Shown: positions 3,504 to 32,942 of the stretch, in pieces
Layout: each line of letters begins with the position of its first letter
How positions within the stretch are numbered: position 1 is the first letter of the stretch
NCBI GenBank assembly: GCA_025965555.1
Contig: JAOPWT010000276.1
Coordinates: forward strand, 1-37,001
DNA from: Mycobacterium sp.
GTDB taxonomy: Bacteria; Actinomycetota; Actinomycetes; Mycobacteriales; Mycobacteriaceae
Reading direction: 5' to 3'
DNA length: 37,001 nucleotides
Position numbers and translations under genes: made by a program
The notes under the pieces: generated by a model
Told to the model about the DNA's origin: nothing
The model's database searches: none
The model's input: the letters and a program-made list of their open reading frames with translations, nothing else

Positions 3504-4225
3504 CAGTTGTAGGACCTCCGCTGGTCGGGCGGTTGTATCTCGGCGCCGTGGTACTCCACGGGGATGCCGCCCAACGGGTAGTCCTTGCGTTGCGGATGCC
3601 CCACCCAGTCGTCGGGCATCTCGATGCGGGTGAGCGACGGATGTCCATCGAAGATGATGCCGAAGAAGTCGTAGGTCTCGCGTTCGTGCCAGTCGGTGGT
3701 CGGGTAGACCGAGAACAGTGAGGGCACATGAGGATCCGCGTCCGGTGCGGTCACCTCGACGCGGATCCTGCGGTTGTGGGTGATGGACATCAGCGGATAG
3801 ACGGCGTGCAGTTCCCTTCCGAGATCACTGGGATAGTGCACACCGGAGACTCCGAGGCACAGCTCGAATCGCAGGGTGGCGTCGTCGCGGAGCGCTTGAG
3901 CGACGGCCACCAGGTGTTCCCGCCGGATTTCGAGGGTCAGTTCCGCGCGGAACACCACGACGCGCTCGACGGCGGCGCCGAAGACGTCGTCGCCAAGGGC
4001 TTGCGCCAACGCGTCGACGACCTCGTCGAAGTAGCCGCCGTACGGCCGCGGCGAGCTACCCGGTAGTTCGACGTCGCGCACCAGCCTGCCGTAGCCCGAG
4101 GTGTCGCCACTGCCCTTCACGCCGAACATGCCTCGACGCTGGCCGATCACCTCTGATTCACCCCCGAGTCGCTGCGCTCCTGCCGGTCGATCGGGCCCGT
4201 TCCCGTTGCCGTTGGCCTCCGTCAT
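3503..4225 (-). CDS. nuoC: NADH-quinone oxidoreductase subunit C
   Basis: [40 protein letters not shown] motif; position between nuoB and nuoD. Confidence 0.96.
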
Positions 4226-4779
4226 GACCGCAGTAATCCCTTGAGCTCGATGGTCGGCCGGGATGCCAGGGCGGCCTCCTCCGCTGCGGCGATGGCCTCG
4301 GCACGATTGACGCCCAAGGGCATCTCCTGAATCTTGGCGTGCAACATGAGGATTGCGTTGAGCAGCATCTCAGGGCGGGGCGGACAGCCTGGCAGATAGA
4401 TGTCGACGGGCACGATGTGATCGACGCCCTGCACGATCGCGTAGTTGTTGAACATGCCGCCCGATGAGGCGCACACCCCCATCGCCAGAACCCATTTGGG
4501 CTCCGCCATCTGGTCGTACACCTGGCGCAGCACCGGCGCCATCTTCTGGCTGACGCGACCCGCCACGATCATCAGATCGGCCTGTCGGGGAGTCGCCGAG
4601 AACCGCTCCATGCCGAACCGTGCGATGTCGAACCGCGGTCCGGCCGTGGCCATCATCTCGATGGCGCAACACGCCAGTCCGAAGGTCGCCGGCCACAGCG
4701 AACCCTTGCGTACGTATCCGGCGACCTTCTCCAACGTGGAGAGGAGGATGCCGCCCGGTAGTTGTTCTTCGAGTCCCAT
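4222..4779 (-). CDS. nuoB: NADH-quinone oxidoreductase subunit B
   Basis: [12 protein letters not shown]...[36 protein letters not shown]. Confidence 0.97.
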
Positions 4780-6804: not shown

Positions 6805-9432
6805 GTGGTGGGGGTTCGCTGGATGATGGCGGGGCGGGGTGCGACGCGCAAGCAGCTCGAGTCCGCATTCGGCTCGGGACGCGGCGCGGTACTGGTCGGC
6901 GCGCCGGGCGTGGGCAAGACCGTGATGGCGCGCGCAGTCGCGAAGGCGTTCGCGAAGGACCATCCTCGCGTCACCTCACGCTGGGTCTCCGCCACCGGGT
7001 CGGCGAAACTCATTCCCTTCGGGGCCTTCAGCCATCTGGTCGAGCTGGCGGGCGCCGACGAACCCGCCATGCTGTTGCGGGCGGCGCAGGACTCGTTGCA
7101 CCGCGACGCCGCGCATGGGCTGACCCTGGTCGTCGACGACGCTTACCATCTCGACACGTTGTCCGCAACGCTCGTCCATCAACTGGCGATCAGCGGCTCG
7201 GCTCGCCTGCTGTTGACGGTTCGTGACGGCGAACCCTGCCCCGACGCGATCACCGCGCTGTGGAAGGACGACATCCTCGCGCGGTGCGACATCCATCCCT
7301 TCGACGCCGACGAATCGGAGACGCTTCTCGAACAGGTTCTCGGTGGCCCGGTCGAGGGCGTCAGTTCGGCTCGCATGTTCGAGGTGAGCCAAGGGAACCC
7401 GCTCTATCTTCGCCACCTAGTGGTGGCCGCGGTGAACACCGGTTCGCTCCGACAGGTCGAGGGTGTCTGGCAGCTGCGCGGTGAAATGACCCTTACCCCA
7501 GAGCTATCCACGCTCATCGATCAGCACCTGAGCGCTCTCGCGCCGGAAGTCCGAACCGTCTTGGAATTCCTTGCCGTGGAGGAACCGCTTGCGGTGTCGG
7601 ATCTCGCCGAGGTCGCAGGCCTGGAAGCGATCGATCGCGCGGAGATCGCGGGAGTCGTCACGATCAGTGATCAGGGTGGCAGCCTCGTCGCGCATCCGTT
7701 CCACCCGCTCTACACCGAGCGCGTTCGGTCCGGGCTCGGGCGGCTGGCCGTTCGCAGGTTGCGCAAGATGCTCGTCGGGCAGCTGTCGAGCGACGCGCCA
7801 ACCAACATCAGTGGGCGGTTGCGAATCGCAGGACTGGCACTCGACACCGACACCCCGCCCGACGCGGGCGACCTGATCACCTTGTCGTGGGAAGCAATGC
7901 GCATGGGCGACCTGGCATTCGGCGAGCGTCTTGCGCGCGGTGCACTCGAGCAGACCGGTGATCTGTCGGCGCGATTGCCACTGGCCCATTCACTGTCGTG
8001 GCAGGGCCGAGGGCGCGACGCCGACGAGGTGCTCAACCCCGTCGATCCCGACACGCTGTCCGAGTGGGATCTCACCGCCTGGACACTTCCGAAGGCCGCC
8101 AACAGATTCTGGATGTTGTCGGAGTCGCACGACGCGGTCAACTACCTGGCGGACATGCGCGCCCGCATCTCCGAGCCTGCCGCCTTCCACACGCTCGACG
8201 CGCTCGCCGCGACCTTCGCGATGAACTGCGGCGAACCCGACCGCGCAGTGCGCGTGGCGTCCGTCGTCCTGGAATCCACTGAGGCGCTGGACCTTGCGGT
8301 CGCCTGGGCGGCGGCCACGGCCACCCTGTCCAGCGCACGACTCGGTCGCTTCGGCGACGTCGAGGTCCTCGCCCAACGCGGGCTTAATGCAACCCACCCC
8401 GGCCTGTTGCGGTTCACCATCGGCCTCGGACAGACCTTCGGCTTGATCATGGCGGGCGACGTGGGCGCCGCGGAGGATCTGTCGCGGCATTACCTGAGCT
8501 TCTCGGAGTTTCAGCAGCCCGGGCGGGCGATCGGTGAGGTCCTACTGGGTCACACGCTGCTGGCGCGCGGTGCCTTCGACGAGGCCGCCAACCTGTTTCG
8601 ACAGGCCGCCGCGGCGCTGACGTCCACCGGTTACAGCTGGGGTCCGTTGGCGCTGATCGGACTGGCGCAGACACTCGGGCAGCAGGGGCGCGCCGCCGAG
8701 GCCGCCAGCGCACTCGATCGCGCCGTGTCCTCCCACGGGATGCGCTCCGAGTTGTACGCTCCCGACCTGGCGCTGGCGCGGGCATGGACGCTTGCCGCGG
8801 CGCGTGACATCCGCGGCGCCGTGGCCGCGGCCCGCGATGCCATCCACGCGGCCGAGAAGTCCGGGCAGAGCGCCGTCGCACTCCGTGCGGTCCACGATGC
8901 GGTGCGACTCGGCGACGTCGACGGGTTGGCTGCGGCGCGCCGGATCAATGCGCAGATCGACTGTGCAGCAGGGCACCTCTTCATCGCGCACGGCCAGGCG
9001 CTCGCGGATCGCGACGGCCCCGCCCTGGCCGGGGTAGCCGCGGAACTGGAGGCCGCGGGAATGCTGGCGGCCGCCGCGGATGCCGCCGCGCAGGCGGCAC
9101 ACGTGCACCAAGCCGCTGGTGACCGCGCGGGCGAGCGGTCCGCCAAGGCGCGCGCCGCAGCATTGTCACAGCGCTGTGGCAATCCCGCGACCCCGGCGTT
9201 GGAGAAGGTACTGAATCCGTTGCCGCTCACGGGCCGCGAACGGGAAGTAGCCGTCATGGTGGCGCAGGGCATGACCAACAAGGCGATTGCCGTCCGGCTG
9301 TCCGTGTCGATCCGCACCGTCGAGGGCCACGTCTACAAGGCGTGCATGAAGCTCGGCCTGCCCGACCGGGCGGCGCTGTCGACGACGGTGCGGGCCAGTC
9401 CGCAGATGTTGCGGACCGATGGCCGAACGTAA
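6805..9432 (+). CDS. Large ATP-binding LuxR-family (LAL/MalT-type) transcriptional regulator
   Basis: 875 aa; Walker A GAPGVGKT, Walker B-like LTLVVDDAYHLD, C-terminal LuxR HTH LTGREREVAVMVAQGMTNKAIAVRLSVSIRTVEGHVYKACMKLGL. Confidence 0.9.
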   Translation: MVGVRWMMAGRGATRKQLESAFGSGRGAVLVGAPGVGKTVMARAVAKAFAKDHPRVTSRWVSATGSAKLIPFGAFSHLVELAGADEPAMLLRAAQDSLHRDAAHGLTLVVDDAYHLDTLSATLVHQLAISGSARLLLTVRDGEPCPDAITALWKDDILARCDIHPFDADESETLLEQVLGGPVEGVSSARMFEVSQGNPLYLRHLVVAAVNTGSLRQVEGVWQLRGEMTLTPELSTLIDQHLSALAPEVRTVLEFLAVEEPLAVSDLAEVAGLEAIDRAEIAGVVTISDQGGSLVAHPFHPLYTERVRSGLGRLAVRRLRKMLVGQLSSDAPTNISGRLRIAGLALDTDTPPDAGDLITLSWEAMRMGDLAFGERLARGALEQTGDLSARLPLAHSLSWQGRGRDADEVLNPVDPDTLSEWDLTAWTLPKAANRFWMLSESHDAVNYLADMRARISEPAAFHTLDALAATFAMNCGEPDRAVRVASVVLESTEALDLAVAWAAATATLSSARLGRFGDVEVLAQRGLNATHPGLLRFTIGLGQTFGLIMAGDVGAAEDLSRHYLSFSEFQQPGRAIGEVLLGHTLLARGAFDEAANLFRQAAAALTSTGYSWGPLALIGLAQTLGQQGRAAEAASALDRAVSSHGMRSELYAPDLALARAWTLAAARDIRGAVAAARDAIHAAEKSGQSAVALRAVHDAVRLGDVDGLAAARRINAQIDCAAGHLFIAHGQALADRDGPALAGVAAELEAAGMLAAAADAAAQAAHVHQAAGDRAGERSAKARAAALSQRCGNPATPALEKVLNPLPLTGREREVAVMVAQGMTNKAIAVRLSVSIRTVEGHVYKACMKLGLPDRAALSTTVRASPQMLRTDGRT

Positions 9433-9655: not shown

Positions 9656-10026
9656 CGGTGTCCTCGGGCACGGTGCCGGTCTGAAGCACCACGACCGCCG
9701 AGGCTAACTGCGGACCACGCCACGTAGGCGCACGAACAGGTGAAAACACGTAGTCCGCTACGCGTGACGGACGCCGCGCCCAGTTCATAGCCTCTTGGCA
9801 CGAGCACACCGGACTTCCGGCGGCCAGGAGGCGGCAATGCATCGAACGGCTTCGCCTGAGGAAGAACTCATCTCACCGACTCGCGCGGCGATTGATGACG
9901 GTCCACGCCTTCGATTCGTCTCCGCACCCCATCGTGGCGCCGACCGCTGACGTCGATGCACCGGCGTGCGGACTGCTCACCCCTTACCGCGTCATCACTG
10001 GCGTTCGGCGATCGAAAGGTGTGCCG

Positions 10027-12792
10027 ATGAACGGGACCAACGATGCCGAGCAGATCTCGTCCTTCCTGTCATCGGCGGCGCGCGGACCGGCGGCTCTGCT
10101 GATCGAAGGGGAGGTGGGAATCGGCAAGACCGCGGCCTGGCTCGCTGCTGCCGAGGAGGCGCGGCTGGGCGGATTCCGGGTTTTGTCGGCGCGGGCCAGT
10201 CGGGACGAGAGGGAATTCGCCTTCGGGATCGCCTCCGAACTGATCGCCGACGTCGAGGCCGACGTTCTCAGCTCGCTGCCCGAGACGCAGCGGATCGCCG
10301 CGGAGCGGAACCTACTGCAGGTGGCGGAACATCAGTCGACCGACGATCAGCGGGCGGTCGTCGCGGCGTTCACCGCGATCGTCAACAAGCTGGCCGATGC
10401 CTCACCCGTGCTCGTCGCCATCGACGACGTCCAATGGCTCGACGCCGCGAGTCGTGATCTTCTCGCCTTCGCTGCACGTCGACTGCGCGGCCGCGTCCGA
10501 CTGTTGCTCACCGAACGGACCACGCCAGACGGTGCCGCGTCCTGGCTGAAGCTCGACAGCCCGGACGCCCTGTCCCGGATGCGGATCCGTCCGATGGAAC
10601 CGAGCCGACTGCAACGGATGATCACCGACCGCGTCGGGCGGTCGTTTTCGCGGCCGACGATGATGCGCATCGCCGAGGTGTCCGGCGGCAATCCCTTCTA
10701 CGCCTTGGAACTCGCACGTTCGCTTCTGAGCAATCCGACGCCCGCCGCGACAGCTGCCCTGCCGCCTGCGCTCGCCGAGATCATGCGGGTGCGAGTCGGT
10801 CGGTTCGACGACGAGGTCAGGCGTGTTCTGCTCGCTGCGGCGTGCATCAGCGATCCGACGGTCGACGTGATGGCGACGATGACGTCCACCACGGTCGACC
10901 GCCTCGTCCACCTGTTGGAGGAACCCGAGAGGCACGGGGTGATCACGATCGAGGGAAATCGAGTCCGGTTCACCCACCCCGTGCTGGCCTACGGCGTCTA
11001 CAGTCAGGCGCTGCCCGCGCAGCGTCGTCGCATGCACCGGATCCTGGCCGATCTCGAGTCCGCTCCGGAGCAGCGGGCACGACACATGGCGCTGGCCGTC
11101 GTGAGCGCAGACCCCGAAACCCTGACTGCCCTCGACGTCGCGGCGGCGGTCGTCAACGTCGATGGCGCCCCGGCCGCGGCGGCCGAACTGGTCGAGTTGG
11201 CCATCGGTCTCGGCGGGGATACCACCGCACGGCGACTCGAGGCTGCGCGGCACCACCTCAGGGCGGGGGACCTCGAGCGGGCCCGAGGCCTGGCGGAATC
11301 CGCCGCCGCTGGCCTTGCCGCCGGAGAGCAACGGGCCGCCGCACGGATGCTGGTTGCCTCAACTCTGATGTGCCACGGCGACTTTGGCGCGGCAGCCGAG
11401 ATGTTTGCGCAAGCGACGACCGATGTCCCCAGGCAACCGGCACTGTTGGTACGAGCCCACCTGTGCTTGGCGATGGCTCAGTTGTCACTCGGGAACGCCG
11501 ACGCCGCGCACCGACACTCCGTGCAGGCGATGACGCACGCCGAGCGACTGAAGGATCCGCATCTCATCAGCCAGTCGCTGGCGATGCACGTCACGCTGCT
11601 GTGCCGCCGGGGCCTTGCGCTGGATCTGAAGACGCTCGACCGCGCCGCGAACCTCGAAGACCTCGACGAGGACGCACCGGCACCCTTCAGCGCCCATGTG
11701 GTCAACGCGCTCGTCCTGGCGTGGACGGGACGCCTCGCCGAGGCGAAGCCGAAACTGGCCGCCATCGTGGCGCGAAGGGCTTCGCGGGGTGCCGACTGCG
11801 ACTTGCCGTGGCTGCAGTTCCACGCCGCGATCGTCGACGTCGGCCTGGGTCGCTACGACGATGCCGCGCGCACGGCGGAGGACATGCTGCTGCGGGCAGA
11901 ACAGATCGGAGGCAACCACTTCCGGATCTTGGCGGCGGTGCCCGCTGCGCTGGCGGCTGCCTACGCGGGCCGAGAGCAGGACGCGCGCAAGGCGGTCGAG
12001 AGCGCGCTCGCGGACACTTCAGCTCCCGACGGGCAGTGGACGACACCGTGGCCGACGATGGCACTCGGCTTCCTGGAGGTTTCACTCGGCAACCATGCCG
12101 AGGCGCTGAACGTCCTGCAGCCGTTGCTTTCTCGGTGGCGTCGGGCCGTTGACGTCGACATTGCCACGTTCTACTTCATTCCCGATGCCGTGGAGGCGAT
12201 GATCGCGATGAACACCCTCGATCCGGCGGAGGAACTGACGACGTCGTTGGAGCACATTGGTTCACGACTGAATCATCCGTGGATGTCGGCGGACGGAGCC
12301 CGCTGCCGAAGCATGCTGCTGGCTGCCATGGGGGATCTCGACGGTGCGGAGCGTGCGGCACTACGTGCCATGGCAGAACACGGCAAGATTCCTGCGCCAT
12401 TCGAACGGGCCCGCACTCAGCTCGTCCTTGGAGGGCTGCAACGGCGTCTGCGCCGTCGGCAGGCCGCGCGCACGACCCTCGAGGCTGCGTTGGCGACCTT
12501 CCAGAGTCTCGGCGCGCCGATCTGGGCGGCCAGGGCCGAAGCGGAGTTGGAGCGCATCAACCTGCTGCGGGGTCACGAGTCCGAGCTGACGCCTGCCGAG
12601 CAGCGCGTCGTAGAACTGGCCGCCACCGGAATGACCAACAAGGACATCGCCGCGGCGCTCTTCATCAGTCCGAAGACGGTCGAATCGAACCTCGGCCGGG
12701 TGTACCGAAAACTGGGTATCCGCACACGGTTCGAGTTGGGGCGCCGGTTGAACGCCGACACCCGGGACTCGACAACCGACGGAGAGGGCTGA
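10027..12792 (+). CDS. Large ATP-binding LuxR-family (LAL/MalT-type) transcriptional regulator
   Basis: Walker A GEVGIGKT, VLVAIDDVQWLD, C-terminal HTH LTPAEQRVVELAATGMTNKDIAAALFISPKTVESNLGRVYRKLGI; start at ATG 10027 (preceded by GAAAGGTG) preferred, alternative ATG 9892. Confidence 0.88.
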   Translation: MNGTNDAEQISSFLSSAARGPAALLIEGEVGIGKTAAWLAAAEEARLGGFRVLSARASRDEREFAFGIASELIADVEADVLSSLPETQRIAAERNLLQVAEHQSTDDQRAVVAAFTAIVNKLADASPVLVAIDDVQWLDAASRDLLAFAARRLRGRVRLLLTERTTPDGAASWLKLDSPDALSRMRIRPMEPSRLQRMITDRVGRSFSRPTMMRIAEVSGGNPFYALELARSLLSNPTPAATAALPPALAEIMRVRVGRFDDEVRRVLLAAACISDPTVDVMATMTSTTVDRLVHLLEEPERHGVITIEGNRVRFTHPVLAYGVYSQALPAQRRRMHRILADLESAPEQRARHMALAVVSADPETLTALDVAAAVVNVDGAPAAAAELVELAIGLGGDTTARRLEAARHHLRAGDLERARGLAESAAAGLAAGEQRAAARMLVASTLMCHGDFGAAAEMFAQATTDVPRQPALLVRAHLCLAMAQLSLGNADAAHRHSVQAMTHAERLKDPHLISQSLAMHVTLLCRRGLALDLKTLDRAANLEDLDEDAPAPFSAHVVNALVLAWTGRLAEAKPKLAAIVARRASRGADCDLPWLQFHAAIVDVGLGRYDDAARTAEDMLLRAEQIGGNHFRILAAVPAALAAAYAGREQDARKAVESALADTSAPDGQWTTPWPTMALGFLEVSLGNHAEALNVLQPLLSRWRRAVDVDIATFYFIPDAVEAMIAMNTLDPAEELTTSLEHIGSRLNHPWMSADGARCRSMLLAAMGDLDGAERAALRAMAEHGKIPAPFERARTQLVLGGLQRRLRRRQAARTTLEAALATFQSLGAPIWAARAEAELERINLLRGHESELTPAEQRVVELAATGMTNKDIAAALFISPKTVESNLGRVYRKLGIRTRFELGRRLNADTRDSTTDGEG

Positions 12793-13103: not shown

Positions 13104-13427
13104 CTACTCCTGCTCGTAGCCGGGATGGGAGACGGCGAGCCGGTGCAGAACGAGTTCGCGCAGTGCCGAGGTGATTTCGGCGCCGCGGTCGTCGAGGTCG
13201 CCGGCACGGATCGCCGCGGCCAGCGCCCGCTCGTCGTCGAAACCAAGTAGATCCGGCGCAGCCGTGTCGTCGAGCAATTCCCGCTCGATGGTGCGCAATA
13301 CGTTGGCGGCGACACGGGCATGGAAGTTGACCGCTCCCGTCGTACCGTCCCTGACGTCGGTTTCCAGGAACTCCGCGACGGCCGCGACGAGTTCGGCCGC
13401 CGTCGGTCTGCCGTACGGGCCGGTCAC
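13104..13427 (-). CDS. DUF6285 domain-containing protein (LvaB-like partner)
   Basis: 107 aa; RPTAAELVAAVAEFLETDV...FHARVAANVLRTIERELL...HRLAVSHPGYEQE; overlaps the kinase-like gene by 4 nt. Confidence 0.75.
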   Translation of the reverse strand: MTGPYGRPTAAELVAAVAEFLETDVRDGTTGAVNFHARVAANVLRTIERELLDDTAAPDLLGFDDERALAAAIRAGDLDDRGAEITSALRELVLHRLAVSHPGYEQE

Positions 13428-14395
13428 GAGGCGTCCTCCAACAGGGTGAGCAGATCGAACTCGGTCTCACAGACCCGACGCCCGATCGCGGCCAGTTCGA
13501 CTGATCGCGTCTGCCCAGACAGGTGTCGTTCGGCCTGGTACCGGCAGATCACCCCCCACCTCAGAGTCGACAGCACCAGCCACCATCGCATGGCGGCGCG
13601 ATCAAGCGTCGTGCCCGAGGTCTCTTCGTAGGCACGCAGAAAGTCCTCGATGCTGCCCAGGCCGCCCGCCCCGAGCGACCGCGGCGCCCCGAAGCGCCAT
13701 GCCCTGATGCAGAACCACGCCAGATCCTCGTACACCTCGCCGGTGTGGGTCAGTTCCCAGTCCAGCACCGCGGCCAACCGGGCCGGATGTTCGCCGGTGT
13801 CGACGATGAGGTTGCCCATGCGGAAGTCGCCGTGCACCAACACGTTTGACGACGCCGGTGGTCGATGCGCGGCGAGCCACCGGAACGCCCACTCGAACGG
13901 CGCCGTGGTGTCACCCATCTCGTCGAGTCGGGCGTGCCATTCGTCGAGCTGGTCGGGCGCCTTGAGTCCGATGCCCGTCGGGTCGGCCCGATGGATCGCC
14001 GCGAGCGCGCGAGCGCACTGCCGGACCAGGTCGGCGCGTGAGTCGTCGTCCAGGGCCCGTTGGATTCGGCGCACGATGGTCTCACCGCCGATGAAGTCGC
14101 AGACCAGGAACGGATTGCCCAGTGCGGTGGATGCATTGTCGGCGACCAGCACGTGCGGCACCGGTGCGCCCTGCGCGGCCGCCCGCCCCGACGCTGCGGC
14201 CTCCAACTCCATTCCCGCATGTATCTCGTCCGGCGGACCGATGCGCAGGATCAGCTCCCGCGTGCCTGCGTCGGTGACCGCCTCGAACGCCCACGTCGCG
14301 CGGCTCGCACCACCCGTCAGGACACGGAGCTGTTCGACGTGCACCGCGCCAAGCGACCGTTCGAGGACGCGCGCGAGCGCGGCAGCGTCGATCAC
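13424..14395 (-). CDS. Phosphotransferase (APH/ChoK-type kinase) family protein
   Basis: 323 aa from GTG 14395 (overlaps the ACAD TGA); LTGGASRATWAFE, NVLVHGDFRMGNLIVD, LAAVLDWELTHTGEVYEDLAWFCIRAWRFG. Confidence 0.9.
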   Translation of the reverse strand: MIDAAALARVLERSLGAVHVEQLRVLTGGASRATWAFEAVTDAGTRELILRIGPPDEIHAGMELEAAASGRAAAQGAPVPHVLVADNASTALGNPFLVCDFIGGETIVRRIQRALDDDSRADLVRQCARALAAIHRADPTGIGLKAPDQLDEWHARLDEMGDTTAPFEWAFRWLAAHRPPASSNVLVHGDFRMGNLIVDTGEHPARLAAVLDWELTHTGEVYEDLAWFCIRAWRFGAPRSLGAGGLGSIEDFLRAYEETSGTTLDRAAMRWWLVLSTLRWGVICRYQAERHLSGQTRSVELAAIGRRVCETEFDLLTLLEDAS

Positions 14396-15636
14396 CTGTT
14401 GGACCGACCGAACTTGAACATCCTCTGCGCCACCCGCCGGATCTGAATCTCCTCGGCCCCCTCGGTGATCCGGTAGCGGCGGTGGTGCCGGTAGATGTGT
14501 TCGAACGGTTCGTGACGGCTGTATCCGAGGCCGCCGTGGATCTGCATCGCCCGGTCGGCGGCCTCGCACACCAGTCGGTTGGCACGATAGTTGGCCATCG
14601 ACACCTTGTCCGACACCTCCATGTGGTGATTGCGGTCCAGATGCCAGGCGGCGTAGTAGACCAGCAGCCGCACCATCTGCGCCTCGGTCTGCAGTTCCAC
14701 CAGCGGCCACTGCACGGCCTGATTCACCGACAGAGGCTTGCCGAACACCACGCGTTCGGAGGCGTAATCCGCGGCCCTGTCGATGCAGTACTGGGCGGCT
14801 CCGAGGCTGCTGGCCGCCTGCCGAATCCTGTTCTCGTGCAGAAAGGTCTGGCCCACCTCCAGGCCGTGATCCACCTCGCCGAGCACCGCGTCGGCGGGCA
14901 CGCGGACGTTCTTCAGTTCCACCTCGCCGTGGTCGGTGGGCATGTTGAACGTCCACCAGTAGAACGGCACGCTGAAGCCAGGACTGTCGCACGGCACCAG
15001 GAACGCCGTGATCCCGGTGGCCTGGCCCGGCTTGCCGGACGTGCGGGCGAAGACGAGGTCGTGGGAGGCGCGGTGCACCCCCGTGTTCCATCGTTTGGTT
15101 CCGTTGATCACCCAGCCGTCACCGTCGGCCACGGCACTGGTCTCCAGCCAGGTGGCGTCGGAGCCATGGTCGGGTTCGGAGAGCCCGAACGCCATCGAGC
15201 GCTCACCGGTGAGCAGAGCCTCGACCCACTCCCTCTTCTGCTGATCGGTGCCGAACCGGTCCATCATGATGACCTGGGGGAAGTTGCCGACGATCGACGA
15301 CTCATCCTGCAGGTCGTTGTGCAGCCCGAGACCCTTGTGCGCCAGGTGTTCCCGGATCACCGCCATGTCGAGGTTGGTGCCGTCGCGCCCACCGAACCGG
15401 GACGGCAGGCCGAATCGCAGCCACCCCGCCGCGTCGGCCCTGCGGCGCATCTCGTCGAGCAGATCCTCCCAGGCCCGCTGCGGAATGCCGCCGTTGTCCC
15501 AATCCGTGCGGGCGTACTCGCGACGCTGGTCGAAGTACTGCATGTGTTCGGCTTCCAGCGGCTTGATCTCGGTCTCGATGAAGGCGTCCATCTCAGCCAG
15601 CAGGCCCGGAAGGTGTTCGGGCAGTGCGAAATCCAC
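14392..15636 (-). CDS. Acyl-CoA dehydrogenase family protein
   Basis: AFGLSEPDHGSDATWLETSA, VINGTKRWNTGV, AMQIHGGLGYSRHEPFEHIYRHHRRYRITEGAEEIQ; GTG start with AGAAAGGA upstream. Confidence 0.92.
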   Translation of the reverse strand: MDFALPEHLPGLLAEMDAFIETEIKPLEAEHMQYFDQRREYARTDWDNGGIPQRAWEDLLDEMRRRADAAGWLRFGLPSRFGGRDGTNLDMAVIREHLAHKGLGLHNDLQDESSIVGNFPQVIMMDRFGTDQQKREWVEALLTGERSMAFGLSEPDHGSDATWLETSAVADGDGWVINGTKRWNTGVHRASHDLVFARTSGKPGQATGITAFLVPCDSPGFSVPFYWWTFNMPTDHGEVELKNVRVPADAVLGEVDHGLEVGQTFLHENRIRQAASSLGAAQYCIDRAADYASERVVFGKPLSVNQAVQWPLVELQTEAQMVRLLVYYAAWHLDRNHHMEVSDKVSMANYRANRLVCEAADRAMQIHGGLGYSRHEPFEHIYRHHRRYRITEGAEEIQIRRVAQRMFKFGRSNR

Positions 15637-15663
15637 GCTGATTCCTTTCTGATGGTCCAACTG

Positions 15664-16281
15664 TCAAAAGCCGTACAGCGTCTTCTTCCAGATCGTCGAC
15701 AGGGTGTGCACCGCGTTCTCGTCGGTGCTCGCCACCCCCAGCATGCCGGTGTCCTCGCGAAGGTAGACCGTGGTGAATCGCTCGAACAACAACGAGATCG
15801 CCAGTGCGGTGTGCTCGGGGTCGAGGTCGACGCCGTAGCCCTGGTCCTGAGCGCGCAGCACCGACGCCCGCACGATGTCGATGCCGAAGCGCCGGAACTC
15901 ATTCTGCAGGGCGGCGAACCGCGGCTGCACCGCGGCGAGCTGATCGACCGCGACCATGATGCCGATGTTCTGCTTGAACATGTTCCAGTAGCCCGTCACG
16001 GCCGAGACGAAGAACTCGGTGTCCTCGGGTGACTCCGGTAGGTGCACCTGCGGGCCGAGAGGAGCGACCACGTCGCGCAGGAACGACTCGGCCAGTACGG
16101 CGAGCAGGTCTTCCTTGTCGGTGTAGTAGCGGTAGAACGCGGCCGGGGACTTGCCGGCCGCCGACGTGATCTCGGTCAGTGTCGTGCCGTGGAAGCCGCG
16201 CTCGGCGAACAACTTCCGTGCGGCGAGTTCGATGGCCTCACGGGTCTGGCGGCCCTTCGCGGTGAGTGACTCTGCAGGCAT
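15664..16281 (-). CDS. TetR/AcrR family transcriptional regulator
   Basis: 205 aa; TREAIELAARKLFAERGFHGTTLTEITSAAGKSPAAFYRYYTDKEDLL. Confidence 0.93.
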   Translation of the reverse strand: MPAESLTAKGRQTREAIELAARKLFAERGFHGTTLTEITSAAGKSPAAFYRYYTDKEDLLAVLAESFLRDVVAPLGPQVHLPESPEDTEFFVSAVTGYWNMFKQNIGIMVAVDQLAAVQPRFAALQNEFRRFGIDIVRASVLRAQDQGYGVDLDPEHTALAISLLFERFTTVYLREDTGMLGVASTDENAVHTLSTIWKKTLYGF

Positions 16282-16289
16282 GGTCGCGT

Positions 16290-17201
16290 TCAGCCCAGGA
16301 TGCGATCGCCGGCGCGCAACAGCGCACTCGGTAGGTCGTGGCCGACGGCCTTGCGCGCGACGTCCGCCGCATGGATCGCTGCCTGCAGGTTGACGTCGAC
16401 GGCGATGTCGCTGTCGCGCAACAGGTAGACGAGGTCCTCAGTGGCGATGTTGCCGCTCGCACCCGGCGCGAACGGGCAGCCGCCGAGCCCACCGGCCGAC
16501 GAGTCAAGCCGTCTGATTCCCGCGGCCACGGCGGCGTAGGCGCTGGCCAGCCCGGCACCTCGCGTGTTGTGAAAGTGGGCACCGAGTGGCAGGTCGCCGA
16601 TGATCGGGGCAAGGAGCTCGATCAGAGCGGTCACCCGGCGCGGTGTGGTGGTGCCGATGGTGTCGGCGATGGCCACCCGGTCGGCGCCGACCTCGACGGC
16701 CGCCGTGGCGATGTCCAGCACCCGCCTTGGATCCGTCGGTCCGTCGAAGGGGCAGTCCCACGCGGTTGCGATGATGACCTCTATCGTCGCGTCGTTCTCG
16801 TGCGCGATGCGGGCGATGTCGGCGATCAGGTCCGTGGACTCGGCGCTCGACCGTCCGACGTTGGCGTGGCTGTGCGCGTCGGCGGCCGACACCACGTACT
16901 CGATCGAGTCCATTCCGGCGGCGATGGCCCGGCCCGCGCCACCAGGTCCGGCGACCAGCGCGGAGAACTCGACTCCGTGCGATTGCCGGAGCCGGGGCAG
17001 CTCGGCCGCCAGGGCCGCGGCGTCGGCGAGCGCGGGCACCTTCGACGGCGATACGAAGGCGGTCGCCTCGATCTCGCGGACACCGGTGGCGACGACGGCC
17101 TCCAGCAGCTCGATCTTGGCGGACAACGGGATCGGAGCCTCGATCTGCAACCCGTCGCGCAAGCAGACCTCGCGGATGGTGACGTGTTCGCGGGGGGTCA
17201 C
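16290..17201 (-). CDS. Hydroxymethylglutaryl-CoA lyase family protein
   Basis: 303 aa; TIREVCLRDGLQIEAPIPLSAKIELLEAVVATGVREIEATAFVSPSKVPALAD...LGGCPFAPGASGNIATEDLVYLL; start overlaps the CoA-transferase stop (GTGA). Confidence 0.9.
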   Translation of the reverse strand: MTPREHVTIREVCLRDGLQIEAPIPLSAKIELLEAVVATGVREIEATAFVSPSKVPALADAAALAAELPRLRQSHGVEFSALVAGPGGAGRAIAAGMDSIEYVVSAADAHSHANVGRSSAESTDLIADIARIAHENDATIEVIIATAWDCPFDGPTDPRRVLDIATAAVEVGADRVAIADTIGTTTPRRVTALIELLAPIIGDLPLGAHFHNTRGAGLASAYAAVAAGIRRLDSSAGGLGGCPFAPGASGNIATEDLVYLLRDSDIAVDVNLQAAIHAADVARKAVGHDLPSALLRAGDRILG

Positions 17202-18439
17202 AGCACGCCCTCCGCCCGCAGCGCCTCGAGTTCGGTTGCCGATCTGCCCAGTAGTTCGCCGTACACCTCGTCGTTGTGCTGACCCGGTTCCAGTGAGCCG
17301 CCGTTGCGGATGGTGCCAGGGGTCTCCGACAGCACCGGCACCACTCCGGGCCCCTTGACGTTGCGACCGATGCGCTCGTCGTAGTGGTCGGCGATCATGC
17401 CCCTGGCCACCAGCTGCGGATCGGTGATGACCTCGGCGACGGTGTTGATGGGCCCGCTGATGACGCCGGCAGCGCCCAGCGTGGCGATGATGTCGGCGGG
17501 GTGTCGTTCTGCCGCCCACGCGCCGATGATCTTGTCGATCTCGTCCTGATTCCGTCCGCGGGCAACGTGATTGACGAAGCGGTCGTCAGTCGCGAGCTCC
17601 GGCTGACCCATTGCGCCGCAGAGGCGGCGGAAGACGGTGTCCTGGTTGGCCGCGATCACCACCCAGCTGCCGTCGGCGGTCGGGTAGATGTTGGACGGGG
17701 CGATGCCATCGAGCCGGGTGCCCGACGGTCCACGCACCACGCCGCCGACGTCGTAATCGGGGATGGTCGATTCCTGCACCGCCAGACAGGCTTCGGTGAG
17801 CGCGGCGTCGACGATCTGGCCCTCGCCGGTCACCGTGCGGCGGTACAGCGCGGCGAGTGCGCCCTGCGCGGCGAACATGCCCGCCAGACTGTCGCCCAGT
17901 GACAGCGCCAACCGTGGGGGAGGGCCCCCCGGGAAACCGTTCATGTGTCGCAGCCCGCTGGCGGCCTCGGCCACCGAGGCGTAACCGGCCTTGTGTGCCT
18001 CCGGCCCGGTCTGCCCGTAGCCGGACACCCGGACCAGGATGATGCCCCGATTGCGTTCGCGCAGAACGTCATAGCCCAGATTCCACTTCTCCAGGGTGCC
18101 GGGGCGAAAGTTCTCCACGATGATGTCGGAGCGTTCGACGAGGTCGAGGAAGAGTTCCCGCCCCTTGGCCTCGCGCAGGTTGAGGGTGGCGGCCTTCTTG
18201 TTGCGGGCGTGGATCGTCCAGAAGAAGTGGTGGCCGTCGAGTTCGGCCTGCCCCCAGGTGCGCAGCGGGTCGGGGGCGCCCGGCGGTTCGATCTTGATGA
18301 CCTCGGCGCCCATGTCGCCGAGCAGTCGCCCGGCGAACGGCCCCGAGATCAGCGTGCCGACCTCGATCACGCGGATGCCGTCGAGCGGGCCGGTCACTGT
18401 CACACCCCCCGGGTCGGTGCCCTCCTGCCCACCGGTCAC
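17198..18439 (-). CDS. CaiB/BaiF family CoA-transferase
   Basis: 413 aa; GPLDGIRVIEVGTLISGPFAGRLLGDMGAEVIKIEPPGAPDPLRTWG...DIIVENFRPGTLEKWNLGYDVL. Confidence 0.93.
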   Translation of the reverse strand: MTGGQEGTDPGGVTVTGPLDGIRVIEVGTLISGPFAGRLLGDMGAEVIKIEPPGAPDPLRTWGQAELDGHHFFWTIHARNKKAATLNLREAKGRELFLDLVERSDIIVENFRPGTLEKWNLGYDVLRERNRGIILVRVSGYGQTGPEAHKAGYASVAEAASGLRHMNGFPGGPPPRLALSLGDSLAGMFAAQGALAALYRRTVTGEGQIVDAALTEACLAVQESTIPDYDVGGVVRGPSGTRLDGIAPSNIYPTADGSWVVIAANQDTVFRRLCGAMGQPELATDDRFVNHVARGRNQDEIDKIIGAWAAERHPADIIATLGAAGVISGPINTVAEVITDPQLVARGMIADHYDERIGRNVKGPGVVPVLSETPGTIRNGGSLEPGQHNDEVYGELLGRSATELEALRAEGVL

Positions 18440-19629
18440 AGTGAGAACCCGTGCCGGTGCAGCCAGTCGGTGACGATGCCGACCGCCTCGCGCAGCGTCC
18501 CGCGTTGGTCCGGGCCCGCGTAGTAATGGTTGGCACCCGCGATCTCGTGCATCTCCTTGTCGGGGTGGCCAATCGCCGCGAACAGTCTGCGGGTGTGGCT
18601 GGGCGTGCACGCGTCGTCGGCGAGGTTGCCGATCACCAGGGCGGGTACGGCGACGTCGGGTCCGCAGTCCACGGCGTCACCGTTGGCGTCGTCGAGGCTC
18701 CACTGCGACAGCCAGCTGCGTAGCGTGCAGAACCGCGCCAGGCCGACGGGACTCGAGTTCACCCCCTGAGGATCGCCCAGATAGCAGGTGCCCGGGGTGC
18801 GATCGTTGGGATCGACCGTCGGATCGAGCCAGCGCGGGTCGGCCATGGTGCCGTGCACGACGAAGGCGAACTCGTCGTTGGGTCGTCCGGCGGCCTTCAG
18901 TTCGGCCAGTTTCTCCTTGACCCACTTGGTGATCCGACGATTTCGTGCCGCCTGGGCGTCTCGGTAGCGGTCCAGGAACTCGGCGGTGTATGGCGGCTGG
19001 TTGGGGTTGTCCGGGTTGTAGAGGTCGAGTTCCGGATCGCGCTTGGATGGATCGGACTCGTCGAGGATCGAGGCGTCCATCCACTCGGTCATGGTGCCGT
19101 GCCGACTGATGTGGGCGGCGAGCAGCATGATGCCGTCGGCGGGGATCAACCCCAGCTTGGTCAGGTCGGGTCCATCGCCCGACGGGCTGGCCGTGATGGT
19201 CGGGTGCTGGGCCTGCTGCTGGTAGAACACCGACAGCGAACCGCCGCCGCTCCAGCCGGCGAGAACCACCTTGGAGTAGCCCAGTCGGTTCTTCGCGTCC
19301 TTGATGCACTCGCCGAGATCCTCGACGACCTTCTCCATCAGCAGGGCCGAGTCGGTGCCGCGGAATCGGCTGTTGCAGTAGATGACGTGGTGTCCGGCGC
19401 GCGCCAGGCCGTTGATCATCGGTAGGTAGGCACCCCCGCCGATTGGGTGCATGAAGACCAGCACGGTGTCGGAGGGCTTGTCCTTTGGCTTGAGCAGGTA
19501 GCTCTCCAGCACGACCAGTTCGGCGACGCCGCCGTACACGTCACGCACGGCCGAGGTGTTCTGATAGGCAACGAGATAGGGGATGCGCTCGTAGTCGTGC
19601 TTGACCGGCGTCTCGGTAACGGTGCTCAT
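18436..19629 (-). CDS. Alpha/beta hydrolase family protein
   Basis: 397 aa; nucleophile elbow VVLAGWSGGGSLS, FMHPIGGG, C-terminal GANHYYAGPDQ; ATG at 19629. Confidence 0.8.
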   Translation of the reverse strand: MSTVTETPVKHDYERIPYLVAYQNTSAVRDVYGGVAELVVLESYLLKPKDKPSDTVLVFMHPIGGGAYLPMINGLARAGHHVIYCNSRFRGTDSALLMEKVVEDLGECIKDAKNRLGYSKVVLAGWSGGGSLSVFYQQQAQHPTITASPSGDGPDLTKLGLIPADGIMLLAAHISRHGTMTEWMDASILDESDPSKRDPELDLYNPDNPNQPPYTAEFLDRYRDAQAARNRRITKWVKEKLAELKAAGRPNDEFAFVVHGTMADPRWLDPTVDPNDRTPGTCYLGDPQGVNSSPVGLARFCTLRSWLSQWSLDDANGDAVDCGPDVAVPALVIGNLADDACTPSHTRRLFAAIGHPDKEMHEIAGANHYYAGPDQRGTLREAVGIVTDWLHRHGFSL

Positions 19630-19661
19630 CAGTGTCTTCTCTTCTTCGCGCAAGCGCTCAT
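19629..19661 (-). CDS. Putative 10-codon mini-ORF 2 (MSACAKKRRH)
   Basis: ATG overlaps the mini-ORF 1 stop; its TGA overlaps the hydrolase ATG at 19629. Confidence 0.35.
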   Translation of the reverse strand: MSACAKKRRH

Positions 19662-19693
19662 CAGTGTTTTCTCTTCTTCGCGCAAGCGCTCAT
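19661..19693 (-). CDS. Putative 10-codon mini-ORF 1 (MSACAKKRKH)
   Basis: ATG shares its A with the dioxygenase TGA (TGATG); stop shares its A with the next ATG. Confidence 0.35.
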   Translation of the reverse strand: MSACAKKRKH

Positions 19694-20835
19694 CAGTGTT
19701 GCCTTCCGAGATCGTTCGCCAGCACCTCGGCAGCCGGGATGAGCCTGCGTCGGGTGTCGATCGCGATCACCGACCAGTCCACGCGGTCGTACTCGTCGAA
19801 CTTGCGGCGGGCACGTTCGCGCGCCTTCTCCGGCGCGCCGTGGTGAACCCCTTGCGGCGCATGCGAAATGAGCCCCGGCGGCATCGGGATGCCATAGAGC
19901 GATCCGCTGTGGAAGAACGCGATCTCGTCGAAGTCGACGTTGCGGTGGTACCACGGGGTGCGCTCAGTGCCCGGCACGCCCTCGGCCCGCTTGGGCAGGA
20001 AGTTCATCACGTAGACGCCGGTGGCCTGCATGAACAGGTGCACGGTGGGCGGTAGGTGGACGCTGTCGGAGGTCACCACGTTGTAGTCGGCGATGTTGAA
20101 CGTGAAGGGGAAGTTGTCACCGCGCCAACCCTCGACGTCGAGCGGATGGTGTTGGTAGTAGAGCATCGTCGGTCCGCCAGGTATGGACGGGTGGACAAGG
20201 CGCACCTCGTACTCGTCGCGGCCATCGTCGTCGATCGGCTCGGGTTCGGGAATCACGGCCTGCGAGGGATCGAATGGGAAGTGTCTGCCCAACTGTGCGG
20301 GTGGCGGTACCCGGAATTCGTCGGTGGCCTGGATCATCAGCAGCGTCGACTCGCCGGTGCCTTCCCCCTGGTCGCTCCGCTCCTGCCCCCGGGGATCGGG
20401 GACCTGGCGGAACGTGCACGCCTTGGGGATGTAGACCCAGTCTCCCTCGCGGTAGCGCAGGGGACCGAACTCCGTCTCGAGAAGCCCGGAACCCTTGTGC
20501 ACGAAGGAGAGCAGATCACCATCCACGTAGCGGGCGAAGTACGGCATCGGCTCGGTGCGCCGCGACAGCAGCACCAGGCAGTCGGCGTTGGAGAACATCA
20601 GCAGCGGATCGCCGTTGGCGTCCGTGGCGTCGCTGGGCTTCAGCTCGCTGGACAGTACGTCGATCGGGCGCAACGGGCCGGCCGAGCGATACGCAGTGGG
20701 GTCGTTGCGCCGGTAGATGTTGGCGGTCCGTCCGGTGAACCCGCCGCGGCCGAGTTCGTCGTCCTTGAGACCGTCGAGGTCGGCGTGCAGGCGCCGCGGC
20801 GTCTTGCCCTTGCGCAGGTGAATGAACGATTCCAT
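19693..20835 (-). CDS. Homogentisate 1,2-dioxygenase family cupin protein
   Basis: MESFIHLRKGKTPRRLHADLDGLKDDELGRGGFTGRTANIYRRNDPT...YHRNVDFDEIAFFHSGS...PQGVHHGAPEKARE; TTGGAGAC upstream of ATG 20835. Confidence 0.85.
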   Translation of the reverse strand: MESFIHLRKGKTPRRLHADLDGLKDDELGRGGFTGRTANIYRRNDPTAYRSAGPLRPIDVLSSELKPSDATDANGDPLLMFSNADCLVLLSRRTEPMPYFARYVDGDLLSFVHKGSGLLETEFGPLRYREGDWVYIPKACTFRQVPDPRGQERSDQGEGTGESTLLMIQATDEFRVPPPAQLGRHFPFDPSQAVIPEPEPIDDDGRDEYEVRLVHPSIPGGPTMLYYQHHPLDVEGWRGDNFPFTFNIADYNVVTSDSVHLPPTVHLFMQATGVYVMNFLPKRAEGVPGTERTPWYHRNVDFDEIAFFHSGSLYGIPMPPGLISHAPQGVHHGAPEKARERARRKFDEYDRVDWSVIAIDTRRRLIPAAEVLANDLGRQH

Positions 20836-20871
20836 GGCTGTCTCCAATGACTTCGCCGCGGTGGGCGTTCG

Positions 20872-20899
20872 GAACTGAAACTGACGTTACTTTCATTTC
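20872..20899. promoter_or_regulatory. Imperfect inverted repeat, candidate TetR-type operator upstream of the dioxygenase operon
   Basis: GAACTGAAACTGA-CG-TTACTTTCATTTC; 10 of 13 positions pair. Confidence 0.4.
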
Positions 20900-20951: not shown

Positions 20952-21340
20952 CTACTGGTCGAGGTCGACGCGTACGGTCAGCAGATTGGTGCCGAACGTG
21001 CGCACGCCGAAGCTGTTGAACTGCGGCAACTCTCGTAGCCGTGCGTGCGGATCGTCGTCGGGCACCAGATGGGCGGTGCCGCTTCGCCACCTGCCGCGCA
21101 GCCGCACCCGGACGCGCGCGTCGGCGGCAATATTGCGCACGTACTGGGACTGTTCGCCGAACTCCGAGACGAACCAGAACTGGTTCCGACGAGCTTGCCG
21201 CCCAATGGGGTGCGGCGGGGCTCGCCCGACTTGCGTCCGGTCGTCTCGAGCAGCGTCTGCGTCGGCAGCCGGCGCATCAACGGGTTCGCCACCCGCTTCT
21301 GGAAGAAGTTGGTCACCGCAGCATTGGGCATGCCACTCAT
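20952..21340 (-). pseudogene. Frameshifted deazaflavin (F420)-dependent nitroreductase family protein
   Basis: Frame 1: MSGMPNAAVTNFFQKRVANPLMRRLPTQTLLETTGRKSGEPRRTPLGGKLVGT; frame 2 resumes QFWFVSEFGEQSQYVRNIAADARVRVRLRGRWRSGTAHLVPDDDPHARL. Confidence 0.8.
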
Positions 21341-24092: not shown

Positions 24093-25301
24093 CTACTTCA
24101 GCTCAGCCGAGGAAAGCCCGAGCAGTCGACGCGCCACGACGAGCTGCTGGATCTGCTGCGTGCCCTCGAAGATGTCGAGGATCTTGCTATCCCGTGCCCA
24201 CTTCTCCAGCAGGGTGTCCTCGGAATAGCCCGTGGTACCGGCCATTTCGACGGCCTTGAGGGTGATGTCGCTGGCCACCCTGGCGGCCTTCGCCTTGCCC
24301 ATCGAGGCTTCCTTGGAGTTCGGGATCTTGTTGTCGGCCTGCCACGCCGAGCGAAGGGTCAGCAGGTAGCCGGATTCCCATTCGGCCTCCATGCGCAGGA
24401 ACTCCGCCGCCGCCGCGCTCTGGGCGTGGGCAGGCTTGTCGTAGGAGATCTCCACGCCGGCGTCGGTGAGGATGGCACGCAACTGCTCGAGCGAAGCGCG
24501 GGCGATGCCGACGGCCATCGCGGCGACGATCGGCCTGGTGTTGTCGAACGTCTCCATGACGCCGGCAAAACCCTTGTCCACCTGGATCTCCGGGCTCCCG
24601 AGCAGGTTGCCCTTCGGGATCCGGGCATTGTCGAAGCGGATCACCGCGGTGTCGGAGGCCTTGATGCCGAGCTTGTGCTCGAGGCGCTCGACGGTGACGC
24701 CCGGATGCTCGCGCGGCACGATGAACGACTTGATCGCGGCGCGTCCGAGGCTCTTGTCGAGCGTGGCCCAGACCACGATGTGGGTGGCCCGCGAGCCTGC
24801 GGTGACGAAGATCTTCTCGCCGTTGATGACGTACTCGTCGCCGTCGAGCTTGGCGGTCGTTGACACCGCCGCCGAATCCGAGCCGAAGCTCGGCTCGGTG
24901 ATCGCCATCGCCGCCCAGACCTTGCCGAGGCGCTCGAGCTGCTCGTCGGTGGCCACGCCGGAGATCGCGGCGTTGCCGAGTCCCTGGTAGGGCACCGACA
25001 GCAGCAGTGCGACGTCACCCCAGCTGATCTCGATCGCATTGACCAGTGCAGACATGTTGGCGCCGTTGACGTTTCCCTTGGGCCCGTCGGCGTCACGGAA
25101 GGCTTCGGCGCCGGCGAAGGAGATCGTGGCGGCTCCTTGGAGGCCCTCGAAGAGGTCCGCGAGGGTGTCCAGCTCGACGGGGTACGCGTGCTCGGCGAGA
25201 TCGTACTTGCGCGAGATGGGACGCAGCATCTCGGCAGCACCGTCGTGCGCCATGTCGATGACGGCCTGCAGCTTGCGCGGCATTTCCAGATTGATTGCCA
25301 T
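24093..25301 (-). CDS. Acyl-CoA dehydrogenase family protein (FadE23-like, Rv3140)
   Basis: 402 aa; MAITEPSFGSDSAAVSTTAKLDGDEYVINGEKIFVT, FEGTQQIQQLVVARRLLGLSSAELK; synteny with the Rv3139-Rv3141 order. Confidence 0.9.
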   Translation of the reverse strand: MAINLEMPRKLQAVIDMAHDGAAEMLRPISRKYDLAEHAYPVELDTLADLFEGLQGAATISFAGAEAFRDADGPKGNVNGANMSALVNAIEISWGDVALLLSVPYQGLGNAAISGVATDEQLERLGKVWAAMAITEPSFGSDSAAVSTTAKLDGDEYVINGEKIFVTAGSRATHIVVWATLDKSLGRAAIKSFIVPREHPGVTVERLEHKLGIKASDTAVIRFDNARIPKGNLLGSPEIQVDKGFAGVMETFDNTRPIVAAMAVGIARASLEQLRAILTDAGVEISYDKPAHAQSAAAAEFLRMEAEWESGYLLTLRSAWQADNKIPNSKEASMGKAKAARVASDITLKAVEMAGTTGYSEDTLLEKWARDSKILDIFEGTQQIQQLVVARRLLGLSSAELK

Positions 25302-25337
25302 GACTGGGTTTCCGTTCGTGGTTTCTGTGACTGGCCG

Positions 25338-25367
25338 TTATAGAACTACGCCGCTTATAGAACTACG
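25338..25367. repeat. Tandem duplication of the 3' end of the FadE24-like gene (17-bp offset)
   Basis: ttatagaactacg at 25338-25350 and 25355-25367; the second copy contains the gene's stop codon. Confidence 0.9.
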
Positions 25368-26764
25368 ACGCCCTCGGCGACGCCGAGTGCGCGCAGGTCG
25401 CGATACCAGCGTTCGACGGGATGCTCCTTGGTGAAGCCGTGACCGCCGAGCAGCTGGACGCCGTCGAGGCCGATCTGCATGCCCTTGTCGGTGGCGATGC
25501 GCTTGGCCAGCGCGGCCTCGCGGGCGAACGACAGGCCCTGCTCAGCACGCGACGCACCGCGCCAGGTGACCAGACGAAGTCCATCGAGTTCGATGGCGAT
25601 GTTGGCGCACATGAAGGCGACGGATTGCCTGCGGGCGACGGGCTCGCCGAACGCCTCGCGTTCCTTGACGTAGGGAATGACGTAGTCGAGCACTGCGTGT
25701 GACGTGCCCACAGCCAATGCGGCCCAACCCAATCGGGCGAGCGCGATGGCCTCCGAGTAGTCACGGGCGTGGTCAGCCTCGCTGGTGTCGTCCTCGCCGA
25801 GGCGGTTGTGCAGCGGCACCGCCACGTTGTTCAACTCGACGCGGCCGAGCGCTGCGGCGCGCACGCCCATGCTGGGGTCGGCCTTGACCGTGAGCCCCTC
25901 GGACGCTGACTCGACGATGAACAGTGCGGGCTTGCCGTTCAGCTGCGCGCCGATGACGAACAATTCGGCGTCGGCGGCCGCGGGCACCAGGGACTTGACG
26001 CCGGTGAGCCGGTAGCCGCTCGGCGTGCGCACGGCGACGGTCTTCAGTGCCGTGGGATCGAACAATGCGTGGGGCTCGGCGATCGCGACGCATGCCTGCG
26101 GCACGTTCTCGCCTGCGAACTCGGGCAGATAGGTGGCCTGCTGATCGGCGCTGCCCCAGTGGGTCAACGCCGAGGCAACGCCGCCGGGCGCGAGGATCGG
26201 CAAAGCAAGTCCCATGTCGCCGTAGGCGAGAGCCTCGGCGACGAGTGCATTGGTCACCGTGCTGCGGTGCGCGGCGATCCCGTCGAAGTCCTCGGGGATG
26301 TTGATTGCCGTGACACCGATCTCGGTGGCCTTGCCGATCAGGTCGGCCGGGTAGGTCGCGGCCGCGTCGGCGTCGTGGGCGGCCGGTCGCAGCAGTTCCT
26401 CGGCGAACTCCGCTACGGTCTCGACGATCATCTTCTGCTCGTCGTCGGGCGTCAGGTCGAAGTAGTCCGCGCCGGTCGGCTTGAGCCGGGTCGGCGGCTT
26501 GCCGATGCCCTGCACGCGCTTGAACTGCCGGGTCGACGCGCCGAGCGCCGAGAACGCCGTCTTGACGCCGAACCGCAGGCCGCGGTTGAGCGGAGCGCGC
26601 AGTCCGTACTTGTCCAGAAATTCCTGGCCGAGAAGCGGGGTGATCAGCGCCAACCCGACAGCGGCTGGGGAGCGCTTGTGCTTTTGCGGACCTACGGAAC
26701 TGTCGGATCCGGAGCGCTTCGGGCGCTGCTTGGAGCCGTTCGTTGACGGCAGGGTGTTCGTCAT
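25355..26764 (-). CDS. Acyl-CoA dehydrogenase family protein (FadE24-like, Rv3139)
   Basis: 469 aa; GVTAINIPEDFDGIA, ACVAIAEPHALFDPTALKT, LLGGHGFTKEHPVERWYRDLRALGVAEGVVVL. Confidence 0.9.
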   Translation of the reverse strand: MTNTLPSTNGSKQRPKRSGSDSSVGPQKHKRSPAAVGLALITPLLGQEFLDKYGLRAPLNRGLRFGVKTAFSALGASTRQFKRVQGIGKPPTRLKPTGADYFDLTPDDEQKMIVETVAEFAEELLRPAAHDADAAATYPADLIGKATEIGVTAINIPEDFDGIAAHRSTVTNALVAEALAYGDMGLALPILAPGGVASALTHWGSADQQATYLPEFAGENVPQACVAIAEPHALFDPTALKTVAVRTPSGYRLTGVKSLVPAAADAELFVIGAQLNGKPALFIVESASEGLTVKADPSMGVRAAALGRVELNNVAVPLHNRLGEDDTSEADHARDYSEAIALARLGWAALAVGTSHAVLDYVIPYVKEREAFGEPVARRQSVAFMCANIAIELDGLRLVTWRGASRAEQGLSFAREAALAKRIATDKGMQIGLDGVQLLGGHGFTKEHPVERWYRDLRALGVAEGVVVL

Positions 26765-32397: not shown

Positions 32398-32942
32398 GTT
32401 TCTGGGATTGGGTCACTCGCAGACGCACCGACCGTGGCTGGCCGGGCTACATCATCAACGGGCGGATCCGGACGTCGACGGCCGCCCTGGTGGTGGCGTT
32501 CATCGTGGTCTCCTGGGTGCACAACACCTACCGGCCGGCATCATCGACGCCTCCCGCGCCCGAGACCGCCCAGGTGGTGCCGCCGGGCTTCATGCCCGAC
32601 CCGCAGTACACCTGGGTGCCCCGCACCAACGTCGAGACGCGGCCAAGGACGACCTACAGCACCCCGACCACGACGACCACCACCAGCACCACCGAGACCG
32701 AAACGACGGACACCACAAGCCCGACCGAGACCACCGGCCCGACGACCAGCGGACCGTCGACAGCGACGACCGTGATCGACCCGGACGGCCCCGGGCCGCT
32801 GCCGCCGACGACGGTGACACAGACCCCGGTGACGTCGCCGGGGGTGCCGGTGCCGAACCGGTCGGGCACGTCGACCACCACCACGACGACGACCCTTCCG
32901 GGTGCCGTGCTGGTGCCCGCGACGCCTGTGCCGCCCGGGTAG
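32394..32942 (+). CDS. Membrane-anchored Thr/Pro-rich hypothetical protein
   Basis: 182 aa; one [18 protein letters not shown] then [29 protein letters not shown]...[12 protein letters not shown]; overlaps the mscS stop (ATGA). Confidence 0.8.

Follow-up and report, generated by a model that had tools for sequence, protein, structure and literature searches.

The question raised by this stretch of Mycobacterium sp. DNA (contig JAOPWT010000276.1, positions 1 to 37,001, referred to below as the window) is whether eight genes lying side by side on its minus strand, from 20835 down to 13104, serve a single catabolic route and, if so, by what chemistry. The catabolism of 4-hydroxy acids by a kinase together with an acyl-CoA dehydrogenase family enzyme (ACAD) was recently worked out in Pseudomonas and in mammals, and a sequence-only reading of the window had joined genes of this Lva type to ring-cleavage genes. 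The genes form two modules. Module A consists of an HGD-like dioxygenase, an alpha/beta hydrolase, a CoA-transferase and an HMG-CoA-lyase-type (HMGL) enzyme, and module B of an E-type ACAD, an LvaA-type kinase and a DUF6285 protein. The best explanation, to which a probability of about 0.5 is given on sequence evidence, is that one TetR-controlled operon places both modules in one route, with the E-type ACAD replacing LvaC. The parts are ordinary, their combination is uncommon and well conserved, and the misidentified ACAD is the most interesting of them.

The gene order deduced from Pfam, NCBIfam and PDB searches was HGD-like, alpha/beta hydrolase, CaiB CoA-transferase, HMGL-like, TetR, ACAD, APH and DUF6285, and both the gene calls and the Pfam/NCBIfam matches agreed with the order and families first proposed. 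The accompanying statement that most junctions were 4-nt start/stop overlaps was overstated, since such overlaps were found at only three of the seven (CaiB/HMGL, ACAD/APH and APH/DUF6285), the remaining four being gaps of approximately 63, 38, 8 and 3-27 nt. In a first sample of 36 congeners, the HGD-like protein was present in 33 and DUF6285 in 35, and the same eight-gene order was observed in all 16 congener stretches inspected, with inserted genes in 3. A scan of named genomes returned 399 relatives of the HGD-like protein; among the loci of the best 80 of these, the complete order was found in 71, all from Mycobacterium sensu lato apart from a single further genus name, Jongsikchunia; the incomplete loci were mostly broken by contig ends. 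One complete 4.0-Mb congener genome (G002) has neither the HGD-like gene nor DUF6285 nor the operator described below.

Of 79 upstream regions, 78 contain a near-palindrome, AAAAgTAAnGTCAcTTTcAgTTtt, placed 14-37 nt ahead of the first gene. In the genome of the window this pattern occurs at a single site (20871-20894, minus strand), and matches to the control pattern numbered 0. Given the 16 congener stretches, the 71 named loci and this unique conserved operator before gene 1, the eight-gene order is well beyond chance, and the operon is retained across almost the whole genus Mycobacterium. The sequence-only reading had asked whether the genes co-occur across Mycobacteriales; within these genomes they do, and they share an operator. 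In two species (L035 and L036), inserted genes separate HMGL from TetR, and a second operator stands directly before TetR-ACAD-APH-DUF6285, a natural indication that neither half can do without this regulator. The operator is probably bound by the TetR-type regulator of the operon itself (15664-16281, minus strand; PF00440, 1.2e-14), and as judged from sequence the eight genes most likely constitute one TetR-controlled catabolic operon of two modules. A scan for sigma-70 promoters and terminators gave no signal above chance.

As far as the kinase and DUF6285 are concerned, the earlier proposal stands, since LvaB is itself a PF19802 protein, the kinase clade includes LvaA, and fusions of the two domains exist. 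The APH-type kinase (13424-14395, minus strand) has its catalytic motifs intact (VHGDFRMGN and VLDWE) and shares 34% identity with LvaA. In the kinase tree, all DUF6285-partnered kinases, with LvaA and the window kinase among them, formed one clade against other APH kinases (100/99). The DUF6285 protein (13104-13427, minus strand; PF19802, 1.3e-18) is an LvaB homologue, its gene overlaps the kinase gene by 4 nt, and it was the sole DUF6285 detected in the genome. The pairwise match between this protein and LvaB was weak; the LvaB annotated in the lva operon of a Pseudomonas aeruginosa plasmid matched the family at 4.8e-24. LvaB is a 12-kDa protein that pulls down with LvaA, and both are required for growth on levulinate (PMC6692424). 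In four other genomes the kinase and DUF6285 are fused in one reading frame, and two of these natural fusions (L103:18392-19828 and L104:1760-3178) offer ready-made constructs for studying the joint action of the two domains. Clade and family assignments show both the kinase and its small partner to be widespread, to occur beside two different ACAD families and, in some lineages, to be fused. DUF6285 thereby gains a likely role as the partner of 4-hydroxyacyl-CoA kinases; a literature search returned no paper matching DUF6285 and none describing the eight-gene operon. The operon resembles the levulinate-catabolic lva operon of Pseudomonas (LvaABC) in placing an LvaA-clade kinase beside DUF6285/LvaB and an ACAD-family enzyme for acyl-CoA catabolism. 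It differs in that its ACAD belongs to another clade and is without the LvaC signature, LvaD and LvaE are missing, the HGD-like, hydrolase, CoA-transferase and lyase genes are added, and the regulator is of the TetR type. An apparent lva-like operon was also seen in a thermophile, on plasmid pTT27 of Thermus thermophilus (L042:4835-7962), where an LvaC-type ACAD, a kinase, DUF6285 and a histidine phosphatase lie in one run.

The ACAD (14392-15636, minus strand, with a TTG at 15660 as an alternative start) had been assigned to the LvaC/ACAD11 type, and this assignment failed. The phosphoacyl-CoA signature of ACAD10/11 consists of a catalytic Asp, an HCMR motif and an upstream Arg (PMC12440821). 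In the window ACAD, ITEGAEEIQ (Glu) is found where LvaC and ACAD10/11 have the catalytic Asp in DGPxEVH, ENRIRQAAS takes the place of HCMR, and Phe occupies the position of the upstream phosphate-binding Arg. The E-type and LvaC-type enzymes fell on opposite sides of one branch of the ACAD tree (100/100). Identity with LvaC was ruled out by the tree together with these motifs, as the caveat attached to the earlier assignment, that the ACAD11-type signature was not obvious, had anticipated. The clade of the window ACAD shares an invariant charged motif, YRHHRRYRITEG, that is absent from the ordinary ACADs compared. The system is comparable to the animal ACAD10 and ACAD11, which are kinase-ACAD fusions for 4-hydroxy acids, in that an APH-type kinase works with an ACAD domain, but the mycobacterial kinase and ACAD are separate proteins and the latter lacks the catalytic Asp, HCMR and the conserved Arg. 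Homologues of the E-type at 58-64% identity were found in Nocardia, Sulfitobacter, a Rhodobacteraceae plasmid and haloarchaea. Outside Mycobacterium they mostly adjoin an APH kinase, which is of the same type in Nocardia, Sulfitobacter and three order-level genomes. The haloarchaeal E-type ACADs (L050-L052) each lie beside an APH kinase and a hypothetical protein of the 159-aa class, for which no Pfam DUF6285 match was obtained where tested; it may serve the kinase as a partner that is either diverged or analogous.

The four genomes with fused kinase-DUF6285 were particularly informative. Streptomyces adustus (L103), Microtetraspora glauca (L104), G047 and G060 all combine, in one cluster, this HGD-hydrolase pair with an ACAD of the true LvaC type and the fusion protein. 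Ring cleavage and LvaAB therefore occur together again, with either of two kinds of ACAD, and the earlier claim that ring-cleavage genes are joined here to Lva-like genes gains support from it. By analogy, the E-type enzyme would, on the simplest reading, take the part of LvaC in the mycobacterial operon. The S. adustus and M. glauca clusters also contain CaiB and HMGL, so that these two join CaiB, HMGL, the HGD-like protein, the hydrolase and kinase-DUF6285 in one locus as the operon does. They are set apart from it by the LvaC-type ACAD, by the fusion of kinase and DUF6285, and by extra ligase, SMP-30 lactonase-like and ACAD genes, to which thiolase and SDR genes are added in S. adustus only.

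Several observations weigh against a single route in which the E-type ACAD replaces LvaC, and they concern either this enzyme or the link between the modules. The enzyme retains the ordinary catalytic Glu in the standard position without any of the residues tied to phosphate handling in ACAD10/11 and LvaC, its best PDB matches are ordinary ACADs and not ACAD11, one E-type locus (L212) has no adjacent kinase, and the genome of the window encodes two true LvaC-type ACADs elsewhere, one of them beside another APH gene. These data, L212 aside, would also fit an ordinary FAD dehydrogenase delivering electrons to ETF, with module B still acting on a hydroxyacyl-CoA and the phosphate removed by another enzyme (for example, an LvaC-type ACAD), or with dehydrogenation before or after the kinase step. 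This alternative was considered rather unlikely, since the E-type has an invariant charged motif of its own and mostly adjoins this kinase, and since in the four genomes above a true LvaC stands in place near the same kinase type and HGD-hydrolase pair. As to the link, only ACAD-APH-DUF6285 is left in one congener (G029), and another (G023; L087 and L088 being the loci of these two) has an HGD gene remnant and has lost the hydrolase and TetR while keeping CaiB-HMGL-ACAD-APH-DUF6285. HGD is likewise missing beside the trio in three genomes belonging to other families (L099-L101) and on Sulfitobacter and Nocardia plasmids. In the class sample of 395 genomes, of whose candidates the scan scored only part, HGD-like genes outside Mycobacterium were mostly without DUF6285, as in the f27 genomes, and vice versa. 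The link between modules A and B is therefore not obligatory, and the two could be unrelated modules for similar nutrients that share a promoter and a regulator with no substrate flowing between them. This was deemed improbable, because the order is constant across the genus, each half of the split operon carries the operator, and Streptomyces and Microtetraspora again bring the two functions into one cluster, there with a different ACAD.

The identity of the first enzyme bears on the substrate. The HGD-like Fe(II) cupin dioxygenase (19693-20835, minus strand; 380 aa) had no Pfam match, scored 32.7 bits (3e-8) against TIGR01015, far under the cut-off of 510.75, and matched PDB 3zds at 6e-8. 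Its iron ligands (H297, E304 and H332) and base (H260) align to those of canonical HGDs, and the top fold matches of its AlphaFold model (pLDDT 65, moderate) were all HGD entries (1.4e-14, TM 0.59). The likeness to homogentisate 1,2-dioxygenase (HmgA/HGD) thus extends to the fold, the His-Glu-His iron site and the base His, whereas the HGD-like proteins, at ~380 aa and ~33% identity, form a clade of their own (100/100), have a shorter loop between two iron ligands, and lack surrounding homogentisate pathway genes. Neither HPPD nor fumarylacetoacetase (FAH) was found over cut-off in 37 Mycobacterium genomes. The canonical homogentisate pathway was ruled out by the clade, the TIGR01015 score and the missing HPPD/FAH partners, and the early suspicion that the enzyme may not act on homogentisate gained support. 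A modified form, in which mycobacteria would break down homogentisate through this operon, cleaving it with the HGD-like enzyme and using the alpha/beta hydrolase in place of maleylacetoacetate isomerase and fumarylacetoacetase, would draw on the retained iron ligands and base, on the lack of any other HGD homologue in nearly all congeners, and on Rhodococcus oxybenzonivorans plasmid pRB98 (L047:10765-13092), where a canonical-clade HGD is paired, near styrene genes, with a homologue of the operon's hydrolase. It was judged highly improbable in view of the separate clade, the shorter loop, the missing partners and G047, which carries a canonical-like second HGD near FAH as well as an HGD-like gene. 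By analogy, the pRB98 pairing suggests that this type of hydrolase can follow HGD-type ring cleavage.

The alpha/beta hydrolase (18436-19629, minus strand; 397 aa) is mostly encoded immediately 3' of the HGD-like gene. Against its AlphaFold model (pLDDT 69), generic esterases and lipases scored about as well as C-C or lactone hydrolases, so the model does not separate ester, lactone and C-C hydrolysis. SMP-30 lactonase-like genes in the S. adustus cluster and a PcaD-like trace in the hydrolase are compatible with a lactone and prove nothing, and the thiolase, ligase, SMP-30 and P450 genes of variant loci, examined for hints of the substrate, did not point to any single compound. The Family III (CaiB/BaiF) CoA-transferase (17198-18397, minus strand; PF02515, 5.7e-118) had succinate-glutarate CoA-transferase as its best NCBIfam match, under the cut-off. 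The HMG-CoA-lyase-type enzyme (16290-17201, minus strand) passed the curated cut-off of PRK05692, the HMG-CoA lyase subfamily (266.8 versus 246 bits), and contains the RDGLQ and GGCPFAPGA motifs. A run of hydrolase, CaiB and HMGL genes in the same order is present on plasmid 3 of Variovorax sp. PBL-E5, but there it comes without an HGD-like gene or kinase-DUF6285, and the genes on its flanks encode two ACADs, an acyl-CoA ligase and a crotonase. An HpaB-family gene was seen beside HGD-hydrolase pairs in G435 and G194 (L089:14114-15490 and L091:1490-2866), with vinylacetyl-CoA isomerase and 4-hydroxybutyryl-CoA dehydratase as its best PDB matches; assignment as the dehydratase was set aside because no cysteines were seen where the Fe-S ligands would lie.

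In the proposed single route, the dioxygenase and hydrolase would cleave the ring of an oxygenated compound, which is probably either a lactone or an aromatic of the hydroquinone type, to release a C4-hydroxy acid, which the CoA-transferase would convert to its CoA thioester. The kinase-DUF6285 pair would then phosphorylate the C4 hydroxyl, and the E-type ACAD, in LvaC's stead, would convert the phospho-acyl-CoA to an enoyl-CoA. Hydration would give a branched 3-hydroxyacyl-CoA, from which the HMGL-type lyase would release acetyl-CoA by cleavage. The E-type reaction and the substrate are the weakest parts of this route; its support comes from the gene content, conservation, the operator, the clade membership of the kinase and DUF6285, the loss of the LvaC signature, and the recurrence with true LvaC. 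More tentatively, and with some doubt, the E-type ACADs may be a second specialized family converting hydroxyacyl-CoAs phosphorylated by LvaAB-type kinases, so that the operon would encode a new pathway from ring cleavage to beta-oxidation via a phosphate-activated hydroxyl. If so, nearly all mycobacteria would possess such a pathway, and Streptomyces a related form of it. With the E-type family it can also be tested directly whether the HCMR/Asp signature is truly needed for 4-hydroxyacyl-CoA chemistry. As a conserved catabolic locus of Mycobacterium for which a putative operator has been located, the operon lends itself to a direct search for inducer and substrate.

The surroundings of the operon include respiratory complex I (nuo) subunit genes (35-4779), two acyl-CoA dehydrogenase genes (24093-26764) and prfB, ftsE and ftsX type genes (30324-34567), from which the location looks core chromosomal rather than an island. 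Two large LuxR-type AAA regulators are encoded at 6805-9432 and 9892-12792, the latter running convergently towards the operon and stopping ~300 bases from its last gene. The gene immediately preceding the operon (20952-21326, minus strand) belongs to the F420H(2)-dependent quinone reductase family (PF04075) and is apparently frameshifted, either naturally or through an assembly error, its N- and C-terminal portions being in different frames, and homologues occupy the same spot in some congeners.

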